Source: Sulfitobacter sp. EhC04
Lineage (GTDB): Bacteria; Pseudomonadota; Alphaproteobacteria; Rhodobacterales; Rhodobacteraceae
Reading direction: 5' to 3'
DNA: 64,000 nt
Assembly (NCBI RefSeq): GCF_001650875.1
Contig: NZ_LXYI01000047.1
Coordinates: forward strand, 1 to 64,000
Shown here: in pieces, positions 2,468 to 28,040 of the stretch
Numbering within the stretch: the first letter of the stretch is position 1
Layout of the letters: the number at the start of each line of letters is the position of its first letter
Position numbers and translations under genes: made by a program
The notes under the pieces: model-generated
What the model was told of the DNA's origin: nothing
The model's input: only the letters and a program-made list of their open reading frames with translations
The model's database searches: none

Positions 2468-2507
2468 CATCTGTTGACTTCCAGTCAAGATGCAGGGGCT
2501 GTATAGT
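2468..2507 (+). promoter_or_regulatory. Candidate autoregulatory operator/promoter of the HicB fusion
   Basis: CATCT-g-TTGACT-tcc-AGTCAA-GATG (2468-2492) is an inverted repeat with 10-bp arms broken by one bulged base. The left arm contains a -35-like TTGACT (2474-2479) and a -10-like TATAGT lies at 2502-2507. Spacing between these two boxes is 22 bp, longer than the usual 17, so either a different -35 is used or an activator is needed. HicB-type antitoxins bind dyads at their own promoter, so autorepression is the natural inference. The dyad covers the first possible ATG (2490), which supports the start at 2541. Confidence 0.5.
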
Positions 2508-2540
2508 ACACAGATATGTGAATTCATACGGGACGACGAC

Positions 2541-3296
2541 ATGCTGAAGCGAAAAGGCACTACTTACGTTTACGTGGTTGCCCATCCCCATGGGCTGAAG
2601 AAAATCGGGATCACGACAAACATGAAGTCCCGAATCCGGACCTTGCAAAACTTGTCCGCTGAGCCACTCAAGCTTTTGTTTTGTAAGGGCGTCGATACAG
2701 CCATAGCGCTAGAGATTGAGCGGTCGACGCACGCCAAGGTCTCCCAGTACCGAGTGTTCGGTGAGTGGTTCCAGGTCTCGGAAGAAATTGCGGTTTCCTC
2801 GCTGCTCTCATCCGCGCTTTCGGCGGGAGTGGACTTAACCAAAGATGAGAATTCGGCAAACGCATCGGCGCCACGACTGCCGCTCCAATACCCATTTGTT
2901 GCCACGCCGGATGGCGATGGCTTTCTTATCACCTGTCCTGACTTGCCCGAAGTTACCTCTGACGCCGATACACTGGATGATGCCGCCGCCCGTGCCGCCG
3001 ACGCCATCGAGGAGGCGATTGCTGGGCGCATGGCTTCGTTTGAGGATATCCCCCGCCCATCGGCTGGCGCTGATATGTGCGACCCGTTGGACCCTTACCT
3101 GTCGATCAAAGTCTCGCTGTTCTGGACCCTTCATGACCGGCAGGAAACCCGCGCCGGGCTTGCGCGCCTCCTTGGTTGGCACCGCAACTCCGTGGATCGC
3201 CTATTCATGCCGCGACACGCCACGAAGTTGGATCAGTTTTCAGCAGCTTTCTCCGCCCTTGGTGCTCGGCTTGATTTCGAGGTTCGGCCCGGTTGA
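2541..3296 (+). CDS. GIY-YIG/MUG113 nuclease-like domain fused to HicB antitoxin and HTH (moron)
   Basis: 251 residues from the ATG at 2541, which has GGGA 7 nt upstream; an in-frame ATG at 2490 lies inside the operator dyad. Residues about 6-90 match the MUG113/T5orf172 branch of GIY-YIG domains: Y9/Y11, K-I-G-I-T at 21-25, R31/R33, E58/E60, H64 and G-E-W-F at 74-77. Residues about 112-185 are a HicB-type partial RNase H fold (Y-P-F-V-A-T-P-D-G-D-G-F, then C-P-D-L-P-E-V). Residues about 190-245 form the HicB C-terminal helix-turn-helix (R-A-G-L-A-R-L-L-G-W-H-R-N-S-V). No hicA is adjacent. It is the only plus-strand gene inside the minus-strand structural operon, which marks it as a moron, probably expressed in the lysogen. 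Whether the nuclease-like part is a toxin held by the HicB part, or a targeting module, is inference. Confidence 0.7.
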   Translation: MLKRKGTTYVYVVAHPHGLKKIGITTNMKSRIRTLQNLSAEPLKLLFCKGVDTAIALEIERSTHAKVSQYRVFGEWFQVSEEIAVSSLLSSALSAGVDLTKDENSANASAPRLPLQYPFVATPDGDGFLITCPDLPEVTSDADTLDDAAARAADAIEEAIAGRMASFEDIPRPSAGADMCDPLDPYLSIKVSLFWTLHDRQETRAGLARLLGWHRNSVDRLFMPRHATKLDQFSAAFSALGARLDFEVRPG

Positions 3297-4395: not shown

Positions 4396-4617
4396 TTACT
4401 TTTTGGCGTCCGCGTCAGCCTTGGCTTTTGCATCAGCTTCGGCTTTCGCCTTGGCGTCCTTGATCACCAGACCGGCGCGCTCGTACTTTGCGCGCTGCTC
4501 GTCGGACCAATCTACGTCAAGAGACACCTTCTTGCCCGGAAGGATGACGTGGAGGTCGCCCGGAATACGGACGGCCTTGCTCTTTCCTGTGGGGTTTTCA
4601 ACTGTGACCTTCATCAT
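4396..4617 (-). CDS. Small head-module protein with Lys/Ala/Asp-rich tail
   Basis: 73 residues from the ATG at 4617, which overlaps the capsid stop; a second ATG follows immediately. The first 50 residues (V-T-V-E-N-P-T-G-K, then L-P-G-K-K-V-S-L-D-V-D-W) look like a small beta domain. The last 25 are an almost pure A/K/D/E repeat (A-K-A-E-A-D-A-K-A-K-A-D), likely helical and highly charged. Genes of this size directly after the major capsid gene are common in such phages, but no function is recognised. Confidence 0.6.
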   Translation of the reverse strand: MMKVTVENPTGKSKAVRIPGDLHVILPGKKVSLDVDWSDEQRAKYERAGLVIKDAKAKAEADAKAKADADAKK

Positions 4618-5636
4618 GTCAGGGTCCCCTTGCGCAGAACACGGGGCTGCTGGCAAACATACAGCGGGTAGCTGTACAATTCACCCTTAGTCCACATGTT
4701 GCGATCACGATCCGGCACGTTCATCGCATAGACGGACTGACCCGGCGTCCCGACGTATTCCAGTGTCTCCAGCGGTGCCTGAGCAACTTTGAAAACGTCG
4801 CGCGCGCCGACAGGGAAGAACTTCGCTTCGGCCACGGGAATTGCCACGGTCGAATTGTCGTCGGTGCCACGATAGTTGTGGAACGTGATGCCGCCGACAC
4901 GGAAGCTTTCGAAGATCGCGCCCTGCGCCTCGCGCAGGTTGTTCGCGGCCTGCTGTTGCAGGTAGAACTTTTCGACGTTCGGATGTGAGATCAGAGCGTC
5001 GTAGAAGTCGTCACCGGCCAGCGCGTGGATGCTGGTGCCCGTGGTGAAGGAGCCGCGACCAGAGCGGACCATGCCGCGCGCAATGTCCTTGCAGACACCA
5101 TGCACGTCAGTACCCGCCTGGTCCAACTCAAAGCTGGTTGCGGCGGGGATGCTTTCGTTGAACTGGGTCGAATAGTCGTAGATGACCGTCGACCCGTCCG
5201 CGTCCAGAAGAATACCCTGCAACGCGCCCAGGCGGTGAAACTCGTGGGTGAGTTCCATGTCGGAGCGCAAGCGCCCCATGCGGCGGCCGTATTCCCGCTG
5301 CACAGCCATCAGCTCTGTTTCTGACCCGAAGGCGCGGATGCCATCCAGTTCATGCGCGTAGAGCGTGAACCGTTTGGCAAGGCGGGCGGTTTTGAGCGAA
5401 ACCGCGTCACGGTCTTCGCCGTCCAGAACTTCTGGCGGGGCACCATCTGCAGATGTCGGGATAAGCGTCAGCCCACCGTCGATACGATCCACAAAGATGT
5501 TGCGGGTGCGCACTGGTGTTGGTTCGAAGATTCCCAGAGAACCCAAAAGGTTCGGCTGGTAATCCATTTTCTCAACCATGCCCGACAAGGAGGTCGTGCT
5601 GAAGGCTGAGTTGTTAAAAATGTCCATGGTAGCCAT
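4614..5636 (-). CDS. Major capsid protein (lambda gpE family)
   Basis: 340 residues, the usual length of phage capsid protein E. The N-terminal D-I-F-N-N-S-A-F-S-T-T-S-L-S, the R-T-R-N-I-F-V-D-R segment and the C-terminal D-R-D-R-N-M-W-T-K-G-E-L-Y-S-Y-P-L-Y-V are characteristic of the family, which forms the icosahedral shell with an HK97 fold. It is preceded by the decoration protein and the protease-scaffold, the standard order. A good ribosome binding site (GGAGG) lies upstream of the ATG. Confidence 0.92.
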   Translation of the reverse strand: MATMDIFNNSAFSTTSLSGMVEKMDYQPNLLGSLGIFEPTPVRTRNIFVDRIDGGLTLIPTSADGAPPEVLDGEDRDAVSLKTARLAKRFTLYAHELDGIRAFGSETELMAVQREYGRRMGRLRSDMELTHEFHRLGALQGILLDADGSTVIYDYSTQFNESIPAATSFELDQAGTDVHGVCKDIARGMVRSGRGSFTTGTSIHALAGDDFYDALISHPNVEKFYLQQQAANNLREAQGAIFESFRVGGITFHNYRGTDDNSTVAIPVAEAKFFPVGARDVFKVAQAPLETLEYVGTPGQSVYAMNVPDRDRNMWTKGELYSYPLYVCQQPRVLRKGTLT

Positions 5637-5654: not shown

Positions 5655-6035
5655 TTAGCGGACGATGATGCCGAGCGCTGCCAAGGCAGCGTTCGATGTG
5701 GTGATTTGAGCGCCGTCTGCGCCCGCCTCATAGGTCAAGTCAGAACCGTTGACCTCAGCATCCCGCGCGATGACGGTAGCCGAATAATCGACGGCTGATC
5801 CGGTGCCGTTCACGAGATTGAAGCCCAGCACTGCGGTTTCGTCTTCTGCGCCGGTATCAAGCGCCGCGTTATGGCGCACGAACTTGCTGGTTGCCGTCAG
5901 CTTGCCCAGGATCGTACCAGCGGCAAACGTGGTGTTGGCAGGAACCGTCACGGTCACCTCGTCACGCGAGCGCCAGTCATTGGCCTCGGAGATGAGGAAT
6001 TCCATGTCGCGGGTGCCCTCAGTGAGAGTGGTCAT
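5655..6035 (-). CDS. Head decoration protein (lambda gpD-like)
   Basis: 126 residues with an N-terminal flexible stretch, E-F-L-I-S-E-A-N-D-W-R-S-R-D-E-V and the pattern A-G-T-I-L-G-K-L, which match the head-decoration protein D family that stabilises expanded capsids by trimeric binding. It sits immediately before the major capsid gene, as in lambda, and ends with a short hydrophobic A-A-L-G-I-I-V-R. Confidence 0.85.
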   Translation of the reverse strand: MTTLTEGTRDMEFLISEANDWRSRDEVTVTVPANTTFAAGTILGKLTATSKFVRHNAALDTGAEDETAVLGFNLVNGTGSAVDYSATVIARDAEVNGSDLTYEAGADGAQITTSNAALAALGIIVR

Positions 6036-6038
6036 GGC

Positions 6039-6563
6039 TTACGCCTCCTTTTTCATGGAAACGACCGAGCCCCAACCGCCGTCCTGCACCTGTGTGCGCA
6101 GGCCGGCGCCGAGAGCGGCGTCGTTTGTTTGGGTTGCAGCGCCCTTCGCGGCGAAGGCAAACGCGCCCTCGATTGCGGCGTCGGTCATAGCCTTTACCTC
6201 AGCATCGCCGAGAGACTTGGCGACAACGGCGCGGCGGATTGCGGCGTCATCCATCTTGGACATTTCGTCCTCGGACAGACCTGCCTTTTTGCCCGCTTCG
6301 GTCGTTTTCGCATACGACTTGGCCGCATCCTGCAACGCGGCGGGGCTGGTGGCATCGGCAAGGGCTTTGTCTTTCGCCTTGATTTCGCCGTCCTTGGTTT
6401 CGATCTGCTTTTTCAGATCGGCGATTTCAGCATCCTTGGTGCTGATTGTGTCAGCCAAGGTCTTTGCTGATGCGTCCTTGAACGCTTCGATTGCGGGTGC
6501 TTGGGCGGCGGGCACGTTGACCGCCTTATCGCCCAACACCACCGAGATAAGAGCATCGGACAT
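6039..6563 (-). CDS. Nested scaffold protein from an internal in-frame start
   Basis: Inside the protease-scaffold gene, an ATG at 6563-6561 (codon 200) is preceded by AAAGGAGGA with 4 nt between it and the ATG, the strongest ribosome binding site in this operon. Translation there gives a 174-residue protein (M-S-D-A-L-I-S-V-V-L-G-D-K) that contains only the coiled-coil scaffold part. Lambda makes its scaffold Nu3 from an internal start of gene C in the same way. The sequence shows start and site; production of the short form is inferred. Confidence 0.7.
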   Translation of the reverse strand: MSDALISVVLGDKAVNVPAAQAPAIEAFKDASAKTLADTISTKDAEIADLKKQIETKDGEIKAKDKALADATSPAALQDAAKSYAKTTEAGKKAGLSEDEMSKMDDAAIRRAVVAKSLGDAEVKAMTDAAIEGAFAFAAKGAATQTNDAALGAGLRTQVQDGGWGSVVSMKKEA

Positions 6564-7160
6564 GGTGTCCTCCTTTGGGTTGCTCGTTTGGATGGCGAGG
6601 GGCGATGCCCCCCAGTGATCCGCATCTTGGTCCCCGATGCGAAATTCTTGACCAGCGCGCCCGTTTGGAACGATGGCGAGGTGGTCCACGAAGATTGAAC
6701 GCTGCACGGCGTCATAGGCTTGCCCGTCCGGCGCGATGCCGGGGGTCCAGTCCAATTTGGTCACATAGCCGACGGACAGTTCGCGCGGCCCACCGCTTTC
6801 GATGGATGCCACGGTGCTGCCGTCTGTGATCGCCACGTCCAGCGCCACGGCCTCTCCATCGCGGGCTACCCCGGCAATGTGCCCCCGTGATAGCGCCGTG
6901 TGATTGTCCGCCGTGACCCGCTCTTTAGGGTGTCCGTCTGTGATAGGCTTGCCTTTGAAGCTACCCATGCTGTCCAGATTGAACACCTCGTCAGCGGGCC
7001 GGTAGACGCGCACGCGATCCAGATCGGGCTTGCCCAACTCAGACCCCATGTAATCCTGAATTCCCGTGCGTGCCGCCTTGACGCGGGCTGTCAGGTATCC
7101 ATCACGGGTTTTGCGCGGCTTGCCGATTTCGACAGCATCCGTGAAGCGAATTTCGGTCAT
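6039..7160 (-). CDS. Prohead protease-scaffold fusion (DUF2213-type)
   Basis: 373 residues from the ATG at 7160, which overlaps the portal stop (ATGA). Residues 1 to about 180 are the DUF2213 domain (D-G-H-P-K-E-R-V near residue 80, G-P-R-E-L-S-V-G-Y, and F-V-D-H-L-A-I-V-P-N-G-R-A-G), the Ser/His-type prohead maturation protease. Residues from 200 on are a charged coiled coil (D-A-E-I-A-D-L-K-K-Q-I-E, K-A-K-D-K-A-L-A) followed by Ala-rich helices, as in internal scaffold proteins. An internal start with its own ribosome binding site lies at codon 200 (see separate entry). Confidence 0.85.
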   Translation of the reverse strand: MTEIRFTDAVEIGKPRKTRDGYLTARVKAARTGIQDYMGSELGKPDLDRVRVYRPADEVFNLDSMGSFKGKPITDGHPKERVTADNHTALSRGHIAGVARDGEAVALDVAITDGSTVASIESGGPRELSVGYVTKLDWTPGIAPDGQAYDAVQRSIFVDHLAIVPNGRAGQEFRIGDQDADHWGASPLAIQTSNPKEDTMSDALISVVLGDKAVNVPAAQAPAIEAFKDASAKTLADTISTKDAEIADLKKQIETKDGEIKAKDKALADATSPAALQDAAKSYAKTTEAGKKAGLSEDEMSKMDDAAIRRAVVAKSLGDAEVKAMTDAAIEGAFAFAAKGAATQTNDAALGAGLRTQVQDGGWGSVVSMKKEA

Positions 7161-8914
7161 GTCTCTGTGATCCCCTCGTTCCAATCCTCTTTGACCTCTT
7201 GAAAGATTTCAGGGCCAAGGATGATAGGCCCCTGATAGGCTTCGATACCTGCGATGTCGGGCGCATCAGGGTCATGGCTGATCGTGATGTGAGGCTGGTA
7301 CTCGGGGTGATCCCAAGTCGCCCCAGCCTCCTTAATGCGCTCGTGACGCCACTTCAGTTCGTCGTTGTTGAACAGAACCACGCGCGCCTTGCCAAACTGC
7401 TCCATGATGCGAGGGCCACCGGGCGCAACCTCGACTTTCGACTGCCAGCTTTCGCCAACATCCATCCAATCAATCTCTGTGCGGCTAAAAGCGACGGTGA
7501 CGTGCAGGTCTGACGCTGGCAGTGTGGTTTTGAAGCCCTGCGCTTTGGCCCAGCGGATAATCTCTGCCCCGTTCAGAACGTCGCGACGAACGTAAAGGGT
7601 ACGCGGCGCTGCGTCGGCAGTGACGGTCTCAACAAAACCACCATCGTCCAACCCGTCATCCGCGATGGTCAGCGCATCAATTCCGGTTTCGCGGAACATC
7701 TGCGCACCGGCAGCGGCGATTTCGTCGTCACCGTAAATCGCAGCCGTTGCCAGCTTGGACAGCGTGTCCGCGTCCTTGTTGCGGATCTCGCTCACTTGGG
7801 TTTCGCTCATCTGCTTGAGTGGACGCCACTCGTATGTCGTTTTGTCCGGCCATGCGCCCAAGGTTGAACGGATCAGCACTTCGTCAAGGATGCTCATCGC
7901 CGGTTCGATTTCCAGCGTCTGCATCGCTTGTACGCGGTCGTAATAATTGTTCAGATCACTTTCGCCCGTGCTGTTCAGCCCGCCCGGTGATGTGCCTAGA
8001 AGCCGCGTCATCGGGATGTCGGCAGCACCAGACGCAACTTGCATGAAGCGGTCTGCAATGTCGGAAAGCCCCGAGAACGCGAAAGACTTGCTCTCGTATT
8101 CCTCGTCTTTATCCAAGATCAGCGTGCCGTTGTTGCCCTTGAGCAGGCGGGCCGTGGCAAACCGCTTGAACAGCATTTCTTCGTACTTCGGGTCGGTGAT
8201 GTTCTCGGACAAGCCTTCGATCTTGATGATGTCCGTCTTCGCATCGAACACCAAAGATGCTACGTTTGCCATGGTCATATCGAGATGCTGACAGGCCGTG
8301 TAGACCGATTGCAGCACGCTGTCACCCCATCCGTATTGACCGGACCCCGCCACGAATTGAGACGGCAGAGGCTCACCCCTGAACTCTACAAGGCGCGTTG
8401 GATGAACTCGCAGGACTTCGCCGTGGTTGGTGCTGAACTGGTAGTCGATAGGCAGGCCATAGCGCGGGCTGCGGGGGTCAATATCCGCCAGACCGGCAAT
8501 GATGTCCTTGCGGGTGATGACAGTCAGATACCGAAGATCGCCCTTGCGGATAGTGCGCGGGTCAAGAGGTTGATTAAGATCCTCACGGCCCGCTCCGATC
8601 AAAATTACTGCGCCGCCGTAAAGCCGCGCCTTCCATTTCGCCTCGTTGATCTTGGCGCGGATGCGGAAAGCATCCTCCATCGCCTCGATCTCTTTCGCGC
8701 CATCACCGCTCCATTCACGCCATTTGCGCACGGCGTCCATTGCAGGGATCGTGACGACCTTGCGCATCACCCAGGACGTGCGGAAAGCAGCCTCAAGCTG
8801 CTGATCGTCCAGCATGTCGACTGCATAACTGACCGTTGCGGCCTTGTCGCCGGATGTACCCAGCCGGGTCGCAAGGCTTTGCAGGCCATCGGCGATGGGT
8901 GTGAATATGCTCAA
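7157..8914 (-). CDS. Portal protein (DUF1073) with C-terminal Acb1-like 2H phosphoesterase domain
   Basis: 585 residues. Residues 1 to about 425 are a DUF1073-type portal: D-M-L-D-D-Q-Q-L-E-A-A-F-R-T-S-W near the start, Y-G-G-A-V-I-L-I-G, and T-R-L-L-G-T-S-P-G-G-L-N-S-T-G-E-S-D. Portals are the 12-mer ring for DNA entry and exit. Residues about 432-585 form a separate domain with two H-x-T motifs, L-H-V-T-V (H471, T473) and P-H-I-T-I (H542, T544), spaced 71 residues apart. Two H-x-T motifs are the hallmark of 2H phosphoesterases, and this layout matches Acb1, a phage enzyme that destroys the cyclic oligonucleotides of CBASS immunity. Portal-Acb1 fusions are known in this family. Enzymatic activity here is inferred. 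Confidence 0.88.
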   Translation of the reverse strand: MSIFTPIADGLQSLATRLGTSGDKAATVSYAVDMLDDQQLEAAFRTSWVMRKVVTIPAMDAVRKWREWSGDGAKEIEAMEDAFRIRAKINEAKWKARLYGGAVILIGAGREDLNQPLDPRTIRKGDLRYLTVITRKDIIAGLADIDPRSPRYGLPIDYQFSTNHGEVLRVHPTRLVEFRGEPLPSQFVAGSGQYGWGDSVLQSVYTACQHLDMTMANVASLVFDAKTDIIKIEGLSENITDPKYEEMLFKRFATARLLKGNNGTLILDKDEEYESKSFAFSGLSDIADRFMQVASGAADIPMTRLLGTSPGGLNSTGESDLNNYYDRVQAMQTLEIEPAMSILDEVLIRSTLGAWPDKTTYEWRPLKQMSETQVSEIRNKDADTLSKLATAAIYGDDEIAAAGAQMFRETGIDALTIADDGLDDGGFVETVTADAAPRTLYVRRDVLNGAEIIRWAKAQGFKTTLPASDLHVTVAFSRTEIDWMDVGESWQSKVEVAPGGPRIMEQFGKARVVLFNNDELKWRHERIKEAGATWDHPEYQPHITISHDPDAPDIAGIEAYQGPIILGPEIFQEVKEDWNEGITET

Positions 8915-10581
8915 GATGCCATCCCCGCGAGGTTGAATTGTTTTTTGGTAATCACCGGCCAGAACGCCATCACGATAGCGTCGGCAAGGTTGGGGGAGCG
9001 TGTCCCTGGCGGAGATTTATCAACCACCAACTTCATCGCGCCCGTTGATCGGCTTGCGGTAGCCTGCCCTAGTTCTTTTTCGATTTGCCGCAGCTTTGGC
9101 AGCGTTGACGGCAGGCTGATCAGGTCATCCGGCGAATAGGTGACGCCCTCGGTGACCGCCCGATAGGTGCGCTCGAACCGCAGACGCAGCTCCCACCAGC
9201 CTTGTGCCTTCAGGTTGCTGTAGAAGTCCTTGTTCGTCGGTGACGCCTTGTCCGGGTTGCCGTGTTCGTCGCGTAGAATATGCTTATCTGGAAACAGCAC
9301 CCCTGCCCCGGCTGACCAAGGCGTCAACTTGATGCCCACTGGCAAGTGACCCTCAGACGCCAGCCTGTTTGCCTCGGATTTAACCCCGGCACCGATGCCA
9401 ACACTGTCATATTGCAGATCGACCGCACCGCGCCCTTGTAGCGCGCCAATGGCCTTACGTGTCGTTTGGCCTGTGTCGCCTTCGCCCCAATCATCTGCGG
9501 CTTCCAGGACCGCGCCCTTGCGAGCAGCAAGGGCGTTCTTGTCGCCGCCCTCGTCTGCTACGTCCAACCCTGCGATGGTTGCGCCCGTCGGCTCGAAACC
9601 AAGCTTGACGTGAGCGTCTATCGCCGCCTTGATCCACGCATTCGGGATAATGACGCCATCGACCGAAGCCGCATAGTTCCGGTCAACCTCTTGCGCGAAG
9701 ACATGCAGCAAGCCATCTGCCTCTGCCTTTTTCCGCCGCGCCTGATACCATTTCTCATCTTTGGCAGGATGATCCCGCCAATCCATGACGAATACGTTGG
9801 TGACGCCCTTGTGAGCCTCGCCGCCTGTCCACTCCACCCCGGCCTCTCTGCGCCGATGAAACACGTTGCCAAGGCCGTTGACTGACGAAATGTCGATCTG
9901 CACGCGGGTGTTGTCTGCAAGCGCCGCCTCGATCTTTTCGGGCCGCTCGAAGTGCGCGGCCTCATCCTTGAAATAGATCAGCTTTCGACCGCCGCGCCCG
10001 ATGTTATCGCCAGCCTCGCCAGTGATTGTCGCCCCCGTCTTCGGGTTGATGATCCGCATGTACGTCATGTGGTCGGATTCATTGAATCCTTCGGGCCAGA
10101 ATTCGCGCGGAATGCCACGAATTAGCATCCGCATTTTCTCGAACAGGCTGTCAGGGTCGCCGATCTTATCGACAAGCTGTTCCTTGCGTGACCCCCAGCC
10201 AACTGCCGCGCCATCCCAGAACCGCCAGAGCCACACCGAAACGGCGCAGCACACCCAACTGGCCCCCATGTCGCGGGCCTTTTCCATCAGCCCGTTCTCT
10301 TCACCAGACAGCATTGCCATGATGAACTCGACCATCTCGGCCTGACGTTCGAACATGATGAACGGCATTTTAGCTGGCGTCGTCTTGCCTGCGTTTCTTG
10401 GGTCGTATGTGTCCATCCAGTGATTGATGAAATCGACCGGGTGCGTGCGGTAGTACACCAGCGCCCCCGCCATGATGACCGGATCGGCGCGCATCGCCTC
10501 AAGCTGCTGTTGCCGCCACGCCCAGACAGGGACGTATTCAGGCGGCCAGTTATCCTTTGTTGCTGTGCAGGGTGGCTGCAT
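8911..10581 (-). CDS. Terminase large subunit (ATPase/nuclease)
   Basis: 556 residues. The ATPase part has the terminase-type Walker A variant K-A-R-D-M-G-A-S at 101-108 and a Walker B with catalytic acid L-I-Y-F-K-D-E-A-A. The C-terminal RNase H-like nuclease begins at I-A-G-L-D-V-A-D-E-G-G-D-K-N, which supplies metal-binding aspartates, and a later N-L-A-D-A-I-V-M-A-F supplies another. It cuts concatemeric DNA and drives packaging through the portal encoded just downstream (4-nt overlap). The N-terminus overlaps the small-subunit gene by 32 nt, so a later start (for example Met30) is possible. Confidence 0.93.
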   Translation of the reverse strand: MQPPCTATKDNWPPEYVPVWAWRQQQLEAMRADPVIMAGALVYYRTHPVDFINHWMDTYDPRNAGKTTPAKMPFIMFERQAEMVEFIMAMLSGEENGLMEKARDMGASWVCCAVSVWLWRFWDGAAVGWGSRKEQLVDKIGDPDSLFEKMRMLIRGIPREFWPEGFNESDHMTYMRIINPKTGATITGEAGDNIGRGGRKLIYFKDEAAHFERPEKIEAALADNTRVQIDISSVNGLGNVFHRRREAGVEWTGGEAHKGVTNVFVMDWRDHPAKDEKWYQARRKKAEADGLLHVFAQEVDRNYAASVDGVIIPNAWIKAAIDAHVKLGFEPTGATIAGLDVADEGGDKNALAARKGAVLEAADDWGEGDTGQTTRKAIGALQGRGAVDLQYDSVGIGAGVKSEANRLASEGHLPVGIKLTPWSAGAGVLFPDKHILRDEHGNPDKASPTNKDFYSNLKAQGWWELRLRFERTYRAVTEGVTYSPDDLISLPSTLPKLRQIEKELGQATASRSTGAMKLVVDKSPPGTRSPNLADAIVMAFWPVITKKQFNLAGMAS

Positions 10582-11074
10582 AAGCTTCAGCGGCCTCCTG
10601 CGGCGTCATGTTCACGTTGACCTTGGGTGTCATGCTGCCGTCCGGGCTGGTGTGTTCCCGCTTGTCCGCAAGCCCCAAATCGCGGGCGATGATGCTGCCA
10701 TTCAAGAGGTCCGCCGACGCACCTTCGAACTTCTGGCGATAGATCACGGATTCCGCTCGCGTAATGACAGGGGATAAATCCGGACGCGAAGTCCGCCATT
10801 CCCGCCATGTTGTTTCATCAATGTCGATGAATTGGCAAAGACCGGCGATGGTCATAGCCCGCATCTTCGCAATAGGCTCGTGTGAGGCTGACCCTTGGAA
10901 TGTCACAAGCTGGTCTGCGTAAAGCGGGTTCTCGTGGTTCCAGTCGAAGTATTCCAGGCACGCGCCCCACAGGTCATCAGGGTTGTTGAACTTGGGTTTC
11001 GCGCCATGCGATGAACGCGCCTCCCAAAAGCGGTTACCCATCGCAAAGCGCCCGTTCTCATCACGGTCGCTCAT
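10550..11074 (-). CDS. Terminase small subunit / DNA-packaging protein
   Basis: 174 residues. The N-terminus (G-R-F-A-M-G-N-R-F-W-E-A-R-S-S-H-G-A-K) followed by N-P-D-D-L-W-G-A-C-L-E-Y-F and a helix-turn-helix-like A-G-L-C-Q-F-I-D-I-D-E-T-T-W match the P22 gp3-like small terminases that recognise the pac site. It ends with a Pro/Asn-rich linker and a helix that overlaps the start of the large subunit gene. First gene of the head module; a hairpin resembling a terminator lies upstream. Confidence 0.82.
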   Translation of the reverse strand: MSDRDENGRFAMGNRFWEARSSHGAKPKFNNPDDLWGACLEYFDWNHENPLYADQLVTFQGSASHEPIAKMRAMTIAGLCQFIDIDETTWREWRTSRPDLSPVITRAESVIYRQKFEGASADLLNGSIIARDLGLADKREHTSPDGSMTPKVNVNMTPQEAAEAYAATLHSNKG

Positions 11075-26767: not shown

Positions 26768-27072
26768 GCCGGCTCAATGAAACGGAAAGTGCGCTGCCAA
26801 ATCGGCTGTTAAAGCCATCTGACGCAGCCATATTCCTGGGGGTTTGCCAAAAGTCCTTGCAAGACTGTCGAGCGCGCGGGCTAAAGTGGGTCGAGGTCAC
26901 GCGCGGGGCCATCCGCTACCGCTACGACGACCTGCAGGAATATGTTGAGGCGCAAACCAGATGCCATTCAGAACAGCGAAAACCCGCGTCTATCAATACG
27001 ACATCGTCGTCAGGGGTCGTCGCTTTCGAGGCTCTACCGGGACGGAAGATTACGAAGAGGCGAAAGAGGTAG
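26764..27072 (+). CDS. Excisionase-like HTH protein (recombination directionality factor)
   Basis: 102 residues. L-L-K-P-S-D-A-A-I-F-L-G-V-C-Q-K-S-L followed by R-Y-R-Y-D-D-L-Q-E-Y is the MerR/HTH_17-type winged helix of phage excisionases. It lies directly before the integrase and its last 112 nt overlap the integrase start in a different frame, so about the last 36 residues (basic, Ser/Lys-rich) share DNA with the integrase arm-binding domain. It would direct excision on induction. Confidence 0.75.
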   Translation: MSRLNETESALPNRLLKPSDAAIFLGVCQKSLQDCRARGLKWVEVTRGAIRYRYDDLQEYVEAQTRCHSEQRKPASINTTSSSGVVAFEALPGRKITKRRKR

Positions 27073-28040
27073 AAGCCAACATTCGCGCAAACGCAAAGCA
27101 GAATGCCGCGCGCGGGTCGGATTGCACTCTATCAGAGGCTCTTGGGACGTACATCAAGGACAGGATCATGGGAACAGCATCAGAGGCCACCACAAACAGC
27201 CAGGCGCGCGTCCTGCTGTCCTTCATGGATGGAAGTAAGAGGCTGTCTGCCCTGACCGACGCCGATCTGATGCGTTATGTCTCCAAGCATCGCGCCACCT
27301 GCGCCAACAGCACGGTCAACCGTCACCTGCAAATGCTAGGGCGCGCTATCCGCCACATGGGAAAGGTCTACAAGGCACCCCTGCCCGATCTGGACTACAA
27401 ATCCGCCGAAACGAAAGAACCCCGTGAGCGGGTCCGGGAGATGTCCACCGAAGAACAGCAGGCATTGTTTGCCGCCCTTCCGCAGGAGTATCACGCCTTC
27501 GTCGCCTTTGCGCTGATGACCGGCGCGCGGATCAGCACGATCACGGGCCTGTTGTGGCGCGACGTTGACATGGCCAACCGCGAACTGACGTTCCGGCTCA
27601 AGGGCGACGACATGATGATTTTCCCGATCAATGATGAGCTGGCGGCGCTGCTGTCGGCATTGCCCCGCTCAAATGTCCTGGTGCATCGCAAGCTGGTGTT
27701 CACGCGCATTGACGGCCACAGCCTCGAACGCATCCCTATCGTAGCTGGCGGCGGTGTGTTCGGAACGGCGTTTCGAAAAGCCTTGAGGGATGCCGGGATA
27801 GACAATTTCCGGTTTCACGATCTGCGTCACACCTTTGCCACTCGCATGCTGCGCCGAACGCAGAACATCAGCTTGGTATCAAAGATGCTGGGGCACAAAG
27901 ACATCGCCACAACCATGCGATATGCGCACGTCCTGACCAGCGATATGCGCAACGCTCTGGACGATTTCAGTGTGCTGGGAACTGGCCCGAAAATTGCCAA
28001 GCCCCAGAATTCGCCCCAGAGAGAACGAAGGAAGGATTAA
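26961..28040 (+). CDS. Tyrosine-recombinase integrase
   Basis: 359 residues. Catalytic residues can be placed: R190 (T-G-A-R-I-S-T), K214 in the beta-hairpin, H286 and R289 (F-H-D-L-R-H), H312 (L-G-H-K-D) and the nucleophile Y321 (M-R-Y-A-H). Residues 1-50 look like an arm-binding domain, 55-140 a SAM-like core-binding domain. It ends 30 bp before the tRNA-Gly fragment that marks attR-type junction. The start follows from the overlap with the excisionase gene; a later Met70 is less likely because it would remove the arm-binding domain. Confidence 0.95.
   Translation: MPFRTAKTRVYQYDIVVRGRRFRGSTGTEDYEEAKEVEANIRANAKQNAARGSDCTLSEALGTYIKDRIMGTASEATTNSQARVLLSFMDGSKRLSALTDADLMRYVSKHRATCANSTVNRHLQMLGRAIRHMGKVYKAPLPDLDYKSAETKEPRERVREMSTEEQQALFAALPQEYHAFVAFALMTGARISTITGLLWRDVDMANRELTFRLKGDDMMIFPINDELAALLSALPRSNVLVHRKLVFTRIDGHSLERIPIVAGGGVFGTAFRKALRDAGIDNFRFHDLRHTFATRMLRRTQNISLVSKMLGHKDIATTMRYAHVLTSDMRNALDDFSVLGTGPKIAKPQNSPQRERRKD

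Follow-up and report, generated by a model that had tools for sequence, protein, structure and literature searches.

A prophage portal protein with a C-terminal domain of the anti-CBASS Acb1 family, predicted to be a tethered phosphodiesterase

Results

A portal protein with an Acb1-family domain is encoded in a prophage head operon

The portal protein encoded in the window (the whole stretch of DNA analysed here, 64,000 nucleotides) ends in a domain of the Acb1 family of 2H phosphoesterases. We consider it probable, at roughly 0.7, that this portal bears a catalytically competent Acb1-type phosphodiesterase on a flexible tether and that the enzyme degrades CBASS signals in the producing cell. 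The features on which this reading is built are the following.

10550..11074, minus strand: terminase small subunit (phrog_606, E 1.7e-51)
8911..10581, minus strand: terminase large subunit, directly upstream of the portal gene (phrog_2, E 3.5e-22)
7157..8914, minus strand: portal-Acb1 fusion protein, 585 aa, with a TTG start overlapping the terminase stop
7757..8803, minus strand: Phage_portal_3 (PF06381) domain, residues 38-386 (E 5.7e-103)
7613..7678, minus strand: predicted flexible linker, residues 413-434 (pLDDT <50)
7604..7615, minus strand: D-A-x-P junction (D434, P437), start of the enzyme domain
7175..7603, minus strand: Acb1 (PF23474) 2H phosphoesterase domain, residues 438-580
7496..7504, minus strand: first H-x-T motif, H471-V-T473, equivalent to T4 Acb1 H44/T46
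7283..7291, minus strand: second H-x-T motif, H542-I-T544, equivalent to T4 Acb1 H113/T115
6039..7184, minus strand: DUF2213 head maturation protease/scaffold, directly downstream (PF09979, E 8e-51; phrog_530, E 1.1e-83)
5655..6035, minus strand: head decoration protein (phrog_49, E 8.1e-10)
4614..5636, minus strand: major capsid protein, Phage_cap_E (PF03864, E 8e-74)
26961..28040, plus strand: phage integrase (PF00589, E 1.1e-27)

The portal gene thus sits in a head operon comprising terminases, portal, protease, decoration, capsid and connector proteins, and the element is read as a prophage because of the integrase gene. The family match, the portal fold and the terminase-protease-capsid operon place the protein among the Phage_portal_3 (HI1409-type) portals. 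An earlier note on this DNA had described the open reading frame as a structural portal fused to an Acb1-like C-terminal domain, and the PF06381 and PF23474 profile matches, together with the portal fold and the head operon, bear this out. As a separate observation, a gene on the opposite strand between the head genes (2490-3296, plus strand) encodes a T5orf172/MUG113 domain, which we take to be of the GIY-YIG type, and a HicB-like antitoxin domain.

The C-terminal domain has the sequence, predicted fold and catalytic tetrad of Acb1

The PF23474 match reaches 143.5 bits (cut-off 27) and covers positions 1-143 of the 144 of the profile (residues 438-580, E 5e-42), and tblastn with the domain alone as query reached T4-type gene 57B at E 5e-6. 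The two H-x-T motifs lie exactly where the earlier note had put them, 71 residues apart, and H471, T473, H542 and T544 occupy the positions of the Acb1 catalytic tetrad (H44, T46, H113 and T115); a third H-x-T, H171-P-T, falls within the portal part. The C-terminal region, for which the earlier note had proposed a model and a comparison with Acb1 structures, is predicted to adopt the 2H fold of the Acb1 family, closer to Acb1 than to other 2H enzymes and with the tetrad residues in place. The identity to FBB1 Acb1 is 23-26%. The Acb1 proteins of phages T4 (gene 57B, 152 aa) and FBB1 (PDB 7t26, 7t27) are stand-alone enzymes whereas that of the window is fused, and the class is defined by a metal-free reaction that cuts cyclic di- and trinucleotides on the 3' side of adenosine.

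The 2H superfamily also performs reactions on RNA, an RNase role has been proposed for portal-fused 2H domains (PMC5512222), and the domain matches PHROG 755, which is labelled RNA ligase. The domain could thus be an RNase or an RNA-end phosphodiesterase acting on host RNA or in RNA repair and not on CBASS signals. We find this improbable: both sequence and model are closest to characterised Acb1, above LigT, the same survey states that no association of these 2H domains with RNA ligases was ever seen, and nine further acb1 genes each cleaved 3'3'-cGAMP and cAAA according to passages of PMC9117128. The assignment to a putative phosphodiesterase of the Acb1 family is well supported by sequence and model.

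In T4 Acb1, passages of PMC9117128 attribute ligand stacking to Y12, W74, F107 and W147 and a contact with adenine N6 to E141. Y12 and W147 are retained in the window protein as Y441 and W578, F107 is replaced by histidine, W74 is aligned with a glutamate at a place where the alignment is loose, and E141 corresponds to Q572, which might still bond. Because of the changes at E141, F107 and W74, the substrate range may differ from that of the T4 enzyme.

Conservation of these positions was compared in 113 unique, closed fused ORFs (147 matched both domain queries, 117 were unique and 4 of these at contig ends were removed). All 113 have Y at the Y12 position, H at H44, T at T46 and H at H113, the invariance of the last being partly built in as the second histidine was in the search patterns. 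The T115 position is T in 98, S in 13 and M in 2, and W147 is W in 93, with 15 gaps and 5 other residues. At E141, 67 have E, 18 A, 17 Q (including the window) and 11 others; at F107, 80 have H (including the window), 22 W, 10 F and 1 Y; at W74, 99 have E (including the window), 13 D and 1 A. Since most of these relatives had been fetched by Acb1 sequence, the comparison was repeated with 25 unique fusions retrieved by portal queries alone (the set covers the portal seeds other than the third). Both histidines are present in 24 of the 25, and D434 and P437 in all.

The exception (locus L229), an open frame with a weak Acb1 match (29.4 bits), has R, V, A and V at the four tetrad positions, and a Mu-type portal fusion (L107) has Y at the position of the first histidine, so catalysis is not always kept. 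These two proteins would fit a purely structural or binding role, in which the fold would be retained to serve as an accessory of the portal or as a nucleotide sponge, with catalysis only incidental; the near-universal histidines of the portal-seeded fusions argue against it, as do close portal relatives devoid of the domain (see below), and we judge it very improbable. The L229 gene itself (L229:3944-5920) encodes a naturally occurring pseudoenzyme, which may be a sponge or a relic.

The domain is under purifying selection and is an optional part of the portal

Among 300 pairs of the portal-seeded set, 264 show stronger conservation in the domain than in the portal, and the median dN/dS is 0.146 for the domain versus 0.332 for the portal, calculated on 228 pairs that are not independent and were selected by Acb1 similarity. 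For some of the closest pairs (L003, which is the window's own prophage, with L004, L005 and L007), the stronger constraint is on the portal. Part of the dN/dS difference could come from domain exchange between portals.

A quick tree of 72 portals, 47 of them with Acb1, requires a minimum of 13 changes in presence of the domain, 8 of which are forced by well supported branches. Near neighbours differ in this respect (L231, domain-less, lies beside L230, and L052 beside L185 and L192), which indicates that the portal does not need the domain. With the window's portal as query 17 of 21 portals carried Acb1. A domain-less portal as query gave 43 loci; 34 of these have a closed 3' end, and 10 of the 34 carry Acb1. 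Of 23 domain-less portals, 3 (L231, L232 and L234) retain the RRAAND tail; they lie near fused relatives on the tree and therefore look like recent losses of the domain; another domain-less portal, L221, has AAND in another setting.

The architecture is widespread. Of 2181 phage records matching some part of the fusion protein, 33 match over 80% or more of its length, and at least 578 stretches of IMG/VR encode relatives of the domain among the 600 candidate stretches listed. The window's gene is a genuine example of this architecture, and an ordinary one. One apparent natural split of the gene, in Synechococcus phage Yong-M3-232 (L049:1464-1717), is due to a tandem duplication of 127 nt (copies 99% identical) within the portal-Acb1 gene, by which the annotated gene is split. 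As 127 nt is a length typical of an assembler k-mer, the duplication is probably an assembly artefact and was not counted as a split.

The domain is attached to several head proteins

Out of 167 ORFs with the domain (some contigs being counted twice), 147 match the window's portal part and 20 do not. A Pfam scan covered 16 of these 20 (set aside were L045, with the same match as L044, L030, truncated where its contig ends, and L108, a broken gene present as two pieces). Two proved to be PF06381 portals after all (L082, truncated, and L089), four are PF04860 portals (L036, L099, L100 and L101) and L107 is a Mu-type PF06074 portal. The domain precedes a DUF2213 protease in L047, accompanies an S78_2 protease in L044 and L105 and a Gp49 domain in L102, and has no Pfam carrier domain beside it in L042, L043 (at least 2368 aa), L046, L049 and L051. 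Two proteins, L032:163-2745 and L040:2324-5605, are triple portal-Acb1-ADP-ribosyltransferase fusions. The domain therefore occurs on several head-interior proteins, namely three families of portals (PF06381, PF04860, PF06074) and two of proteases (DUF2213, S78_2). In the domain tree a single supported clade unites the PF04860 fusions, and L107 lies on a long branch beside a PF06381 fusion, suggesting that the domain has probably moved between carriers.

Three side observations concern these loci. In L220:6332-7990, a 2H domain with HVT and HVS motifs is N-terminal on a DUF2213 head protease, and the phage's own portal is domain-less; this 2H domain scores 30.0 bits with 2_5_RNA_ligase2, over the cut-off, and 23.9 bits with Acb1, under it. 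The L105 contig is binned as Candidatus Methanoperedens, which points to an archaeal virus or to a binning error. L211, L213 and L214-L217 encode Phage_portal_3 portals with C-terminal extensions of 744-1291 aa, possibly other payloads, and the three extensions scanned (L211, L213 and L215) match no Pfam family over the cut-off.

CBASS synthases in the hosts

The Acb1 domain occurs once in the window's own genome, in no other of 118 relatives' genomes and in 4 of 289 genomes of the class, 2 of them over the cut-off and the window's own among the four. SMODS synthases were searched for with PF18144, a family to which only some of the CBASS synthases belong; it has no match in the window's own genome and is matched in 14 of the 118 relatives. 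SMODS is found in 12 of 40 Acb1 carriers versus 12 of 289 genomes of the class (Fisher p 2e-6). Compared with 24 of 151 genomes from the family of one carrier, a control that contains some carriers, the p value is 0.066, or 0.21 when only matches over the cut-off are counted. The 40 genomes, one of them a MAG, represent 40 of 55 genome loci, and not every one of them carries a PF06381 fusion; the 15 loci set aside are 11 from MAGs (one being the second locus of an included genome), 2 further second loci of included genomes and 2 isolates whose names go no further than the order. As the nearer comparison is not significant, the co-occurrence gives no evidence of association. The presence of SMODS in relatives, carriers and class nevertheless makes CBASS available as a target.

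The junction, the linker and the fate of the domain in the virion

Portal C-termini face the capsid interior, where the domain would also be placed, and the portal itself stays in the emptied capsid after infection. For this last reason carriage of the enzyme to the next cell would need cleavage. A maturation protease might cut Acb1 from the portal in the prohead, the packaged enzyme then entering the next cell and pre-empting CBASS. Consistent with such a payload, the domain is fused to head-interior proteins (three portal families and head proteases), the next gene encodes the DUF2213 protease, and the D-A-x-P junction is nearly invariant (D and P in 113 of 113 fused ORFs, A in 111) beside a linker that is hypervariable in length and sequence across relatives. 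The two triple fusions point in the same direction, as head-fused ADP-ribosyltransferases are read as packaged and injected in passages of PMC9503650. On the other side, the PF04860, Mu-type and protease fusions have no D-A pair at the junction, and neither has L089, which is a PF06381 fusion with N in place of the junction D.

The scaffold proteins do not strengthen the case for cleavage. In the last 60 residues of 107 unique scaffold proteins, NDA occurs in 24 and [NA]DAW in 8; shuffled sequences give 6.2 and 0.4, and a control segment from inside the proteins gives 6 and 0. These counts are suggestive at most of a shared protease site: the fuller pattern stands at 17 versus 12 in the control, and 83 of the 107 have no NDA. 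There being no convincing shared site, this candidate was not used as evidence.

The portal of cyanophage Pam3 (PDB 8hds; ON014755 Pam3_03, 621 aa), about 41% identical to the window protein, differs from it by a longer stretch between the domains and by H-I-S as second motif. The deposited sequence has 621 residues, the chain in the structure library has 442 with an alignment that reaches residue 425, and Pam3 is missing from the best 50 structure matches listed for the domain model, from which we infer that the Acb1 part was very probably not built in this particle structure. A chain that seems devoid of the domain would agree with cleavage, but a flexible tether predicts missing density equally well. 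Taken together, these results leave a payload released from the portal possible but unlikely.

The earlier note had also offered a soluble form made from an alternative start, and this proposal is not supported. Between 45 codons before and 60 after the junction, the window gene has three in-frame starts (two ATG and one TTG), none of them with a Shine-Dalgarno-like match, and starts with such a match occur at the junction in 8.8% of the 113 fused genes, close to the 6.5% of control portal stretches.

Discussion

The reading we prefer, that of a tethered enzyme active in the producing cell, can be described as follows. The enzyme would be made within the head operon, alongside the structural proteins, so that, if CBASS were to sound its cyclic di- or trinucleotide alarm while particles are being assembled, the signal would be degraded in that same cell. 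The tether would let the domain act both on a free portal and on an assembled one, as a part of either. Carriage to the next cell would be an added possibility. A passage of PMC12409349, citing Richmond-Buccola 2024, reports a demonstrated interaction between a CBASS sensor and a phage prohead protease; in this light it is sensible for an antidote to be co-expressed with the head proteins.

The earlier note overrated the novelty of this architecture. Section 20 of PMC5512222 (2017) describes fusions of 2H domains with MuF or portal domains, for which it proposes either an RNase function or the breakdown of immune nucleotides, and passages of PMC9503650 (2022) suggest head packaging and injection of such fusions, potentially countering nucleotide signalling; the architecture and the counter-immunity proposal are the same as for the window. 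The words Acb1, DUF1073 and 57B are absent from the main texts of both and, unlike the present analysis, these surveys of polyvalent proteins contain, in their available passages, neither a structure match nor a selection test nor a count of gains and losses. The word "portal" occurs 0 times in Hobbs 2022. Open-licence PMC papers naming both anti-CBASS and portal describe no fusion in the passages concerned, and the part of that literature searched yielded no experiment on portal-Acb1.

T4 Alt and other head-packaged ADP-ribosyltransferases are precedents for an enzyme on or in the virion, and L032 and L040 join such a domain to portal-Acb1. Packaging and injection of T4 Alt are reported in a passage of PMC5512222; we are aware of no such result for portal-Acb1. 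A bolder version of the payload would make the head interior a general dock for counter-signalling enzymes. We regard this extension as quite doubtful. If it were true, twelve Acb1 domains would hang from the portal inside each capsid and the neighbouring DUF2213 protease would cut at the D-A-x-P junction. The freed enzyme would enter the next cell before phage gene expression, so that CBASS would be disarmed before it is triggered, and relatives would swap the carrier (three portal families, proteases) or add an ADP-ribosyltransferase.

For the family, the question raised by portal-Acb1 is whether the immune signal is destroyed in the producing cell, as we favour, or whether an antidote is carried to the next one. 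Pam3 and Rhizobium phages are ready material for this question, and the L229 pseudoenzyme and the domain-less L231 and L052 offer natural comparisons.
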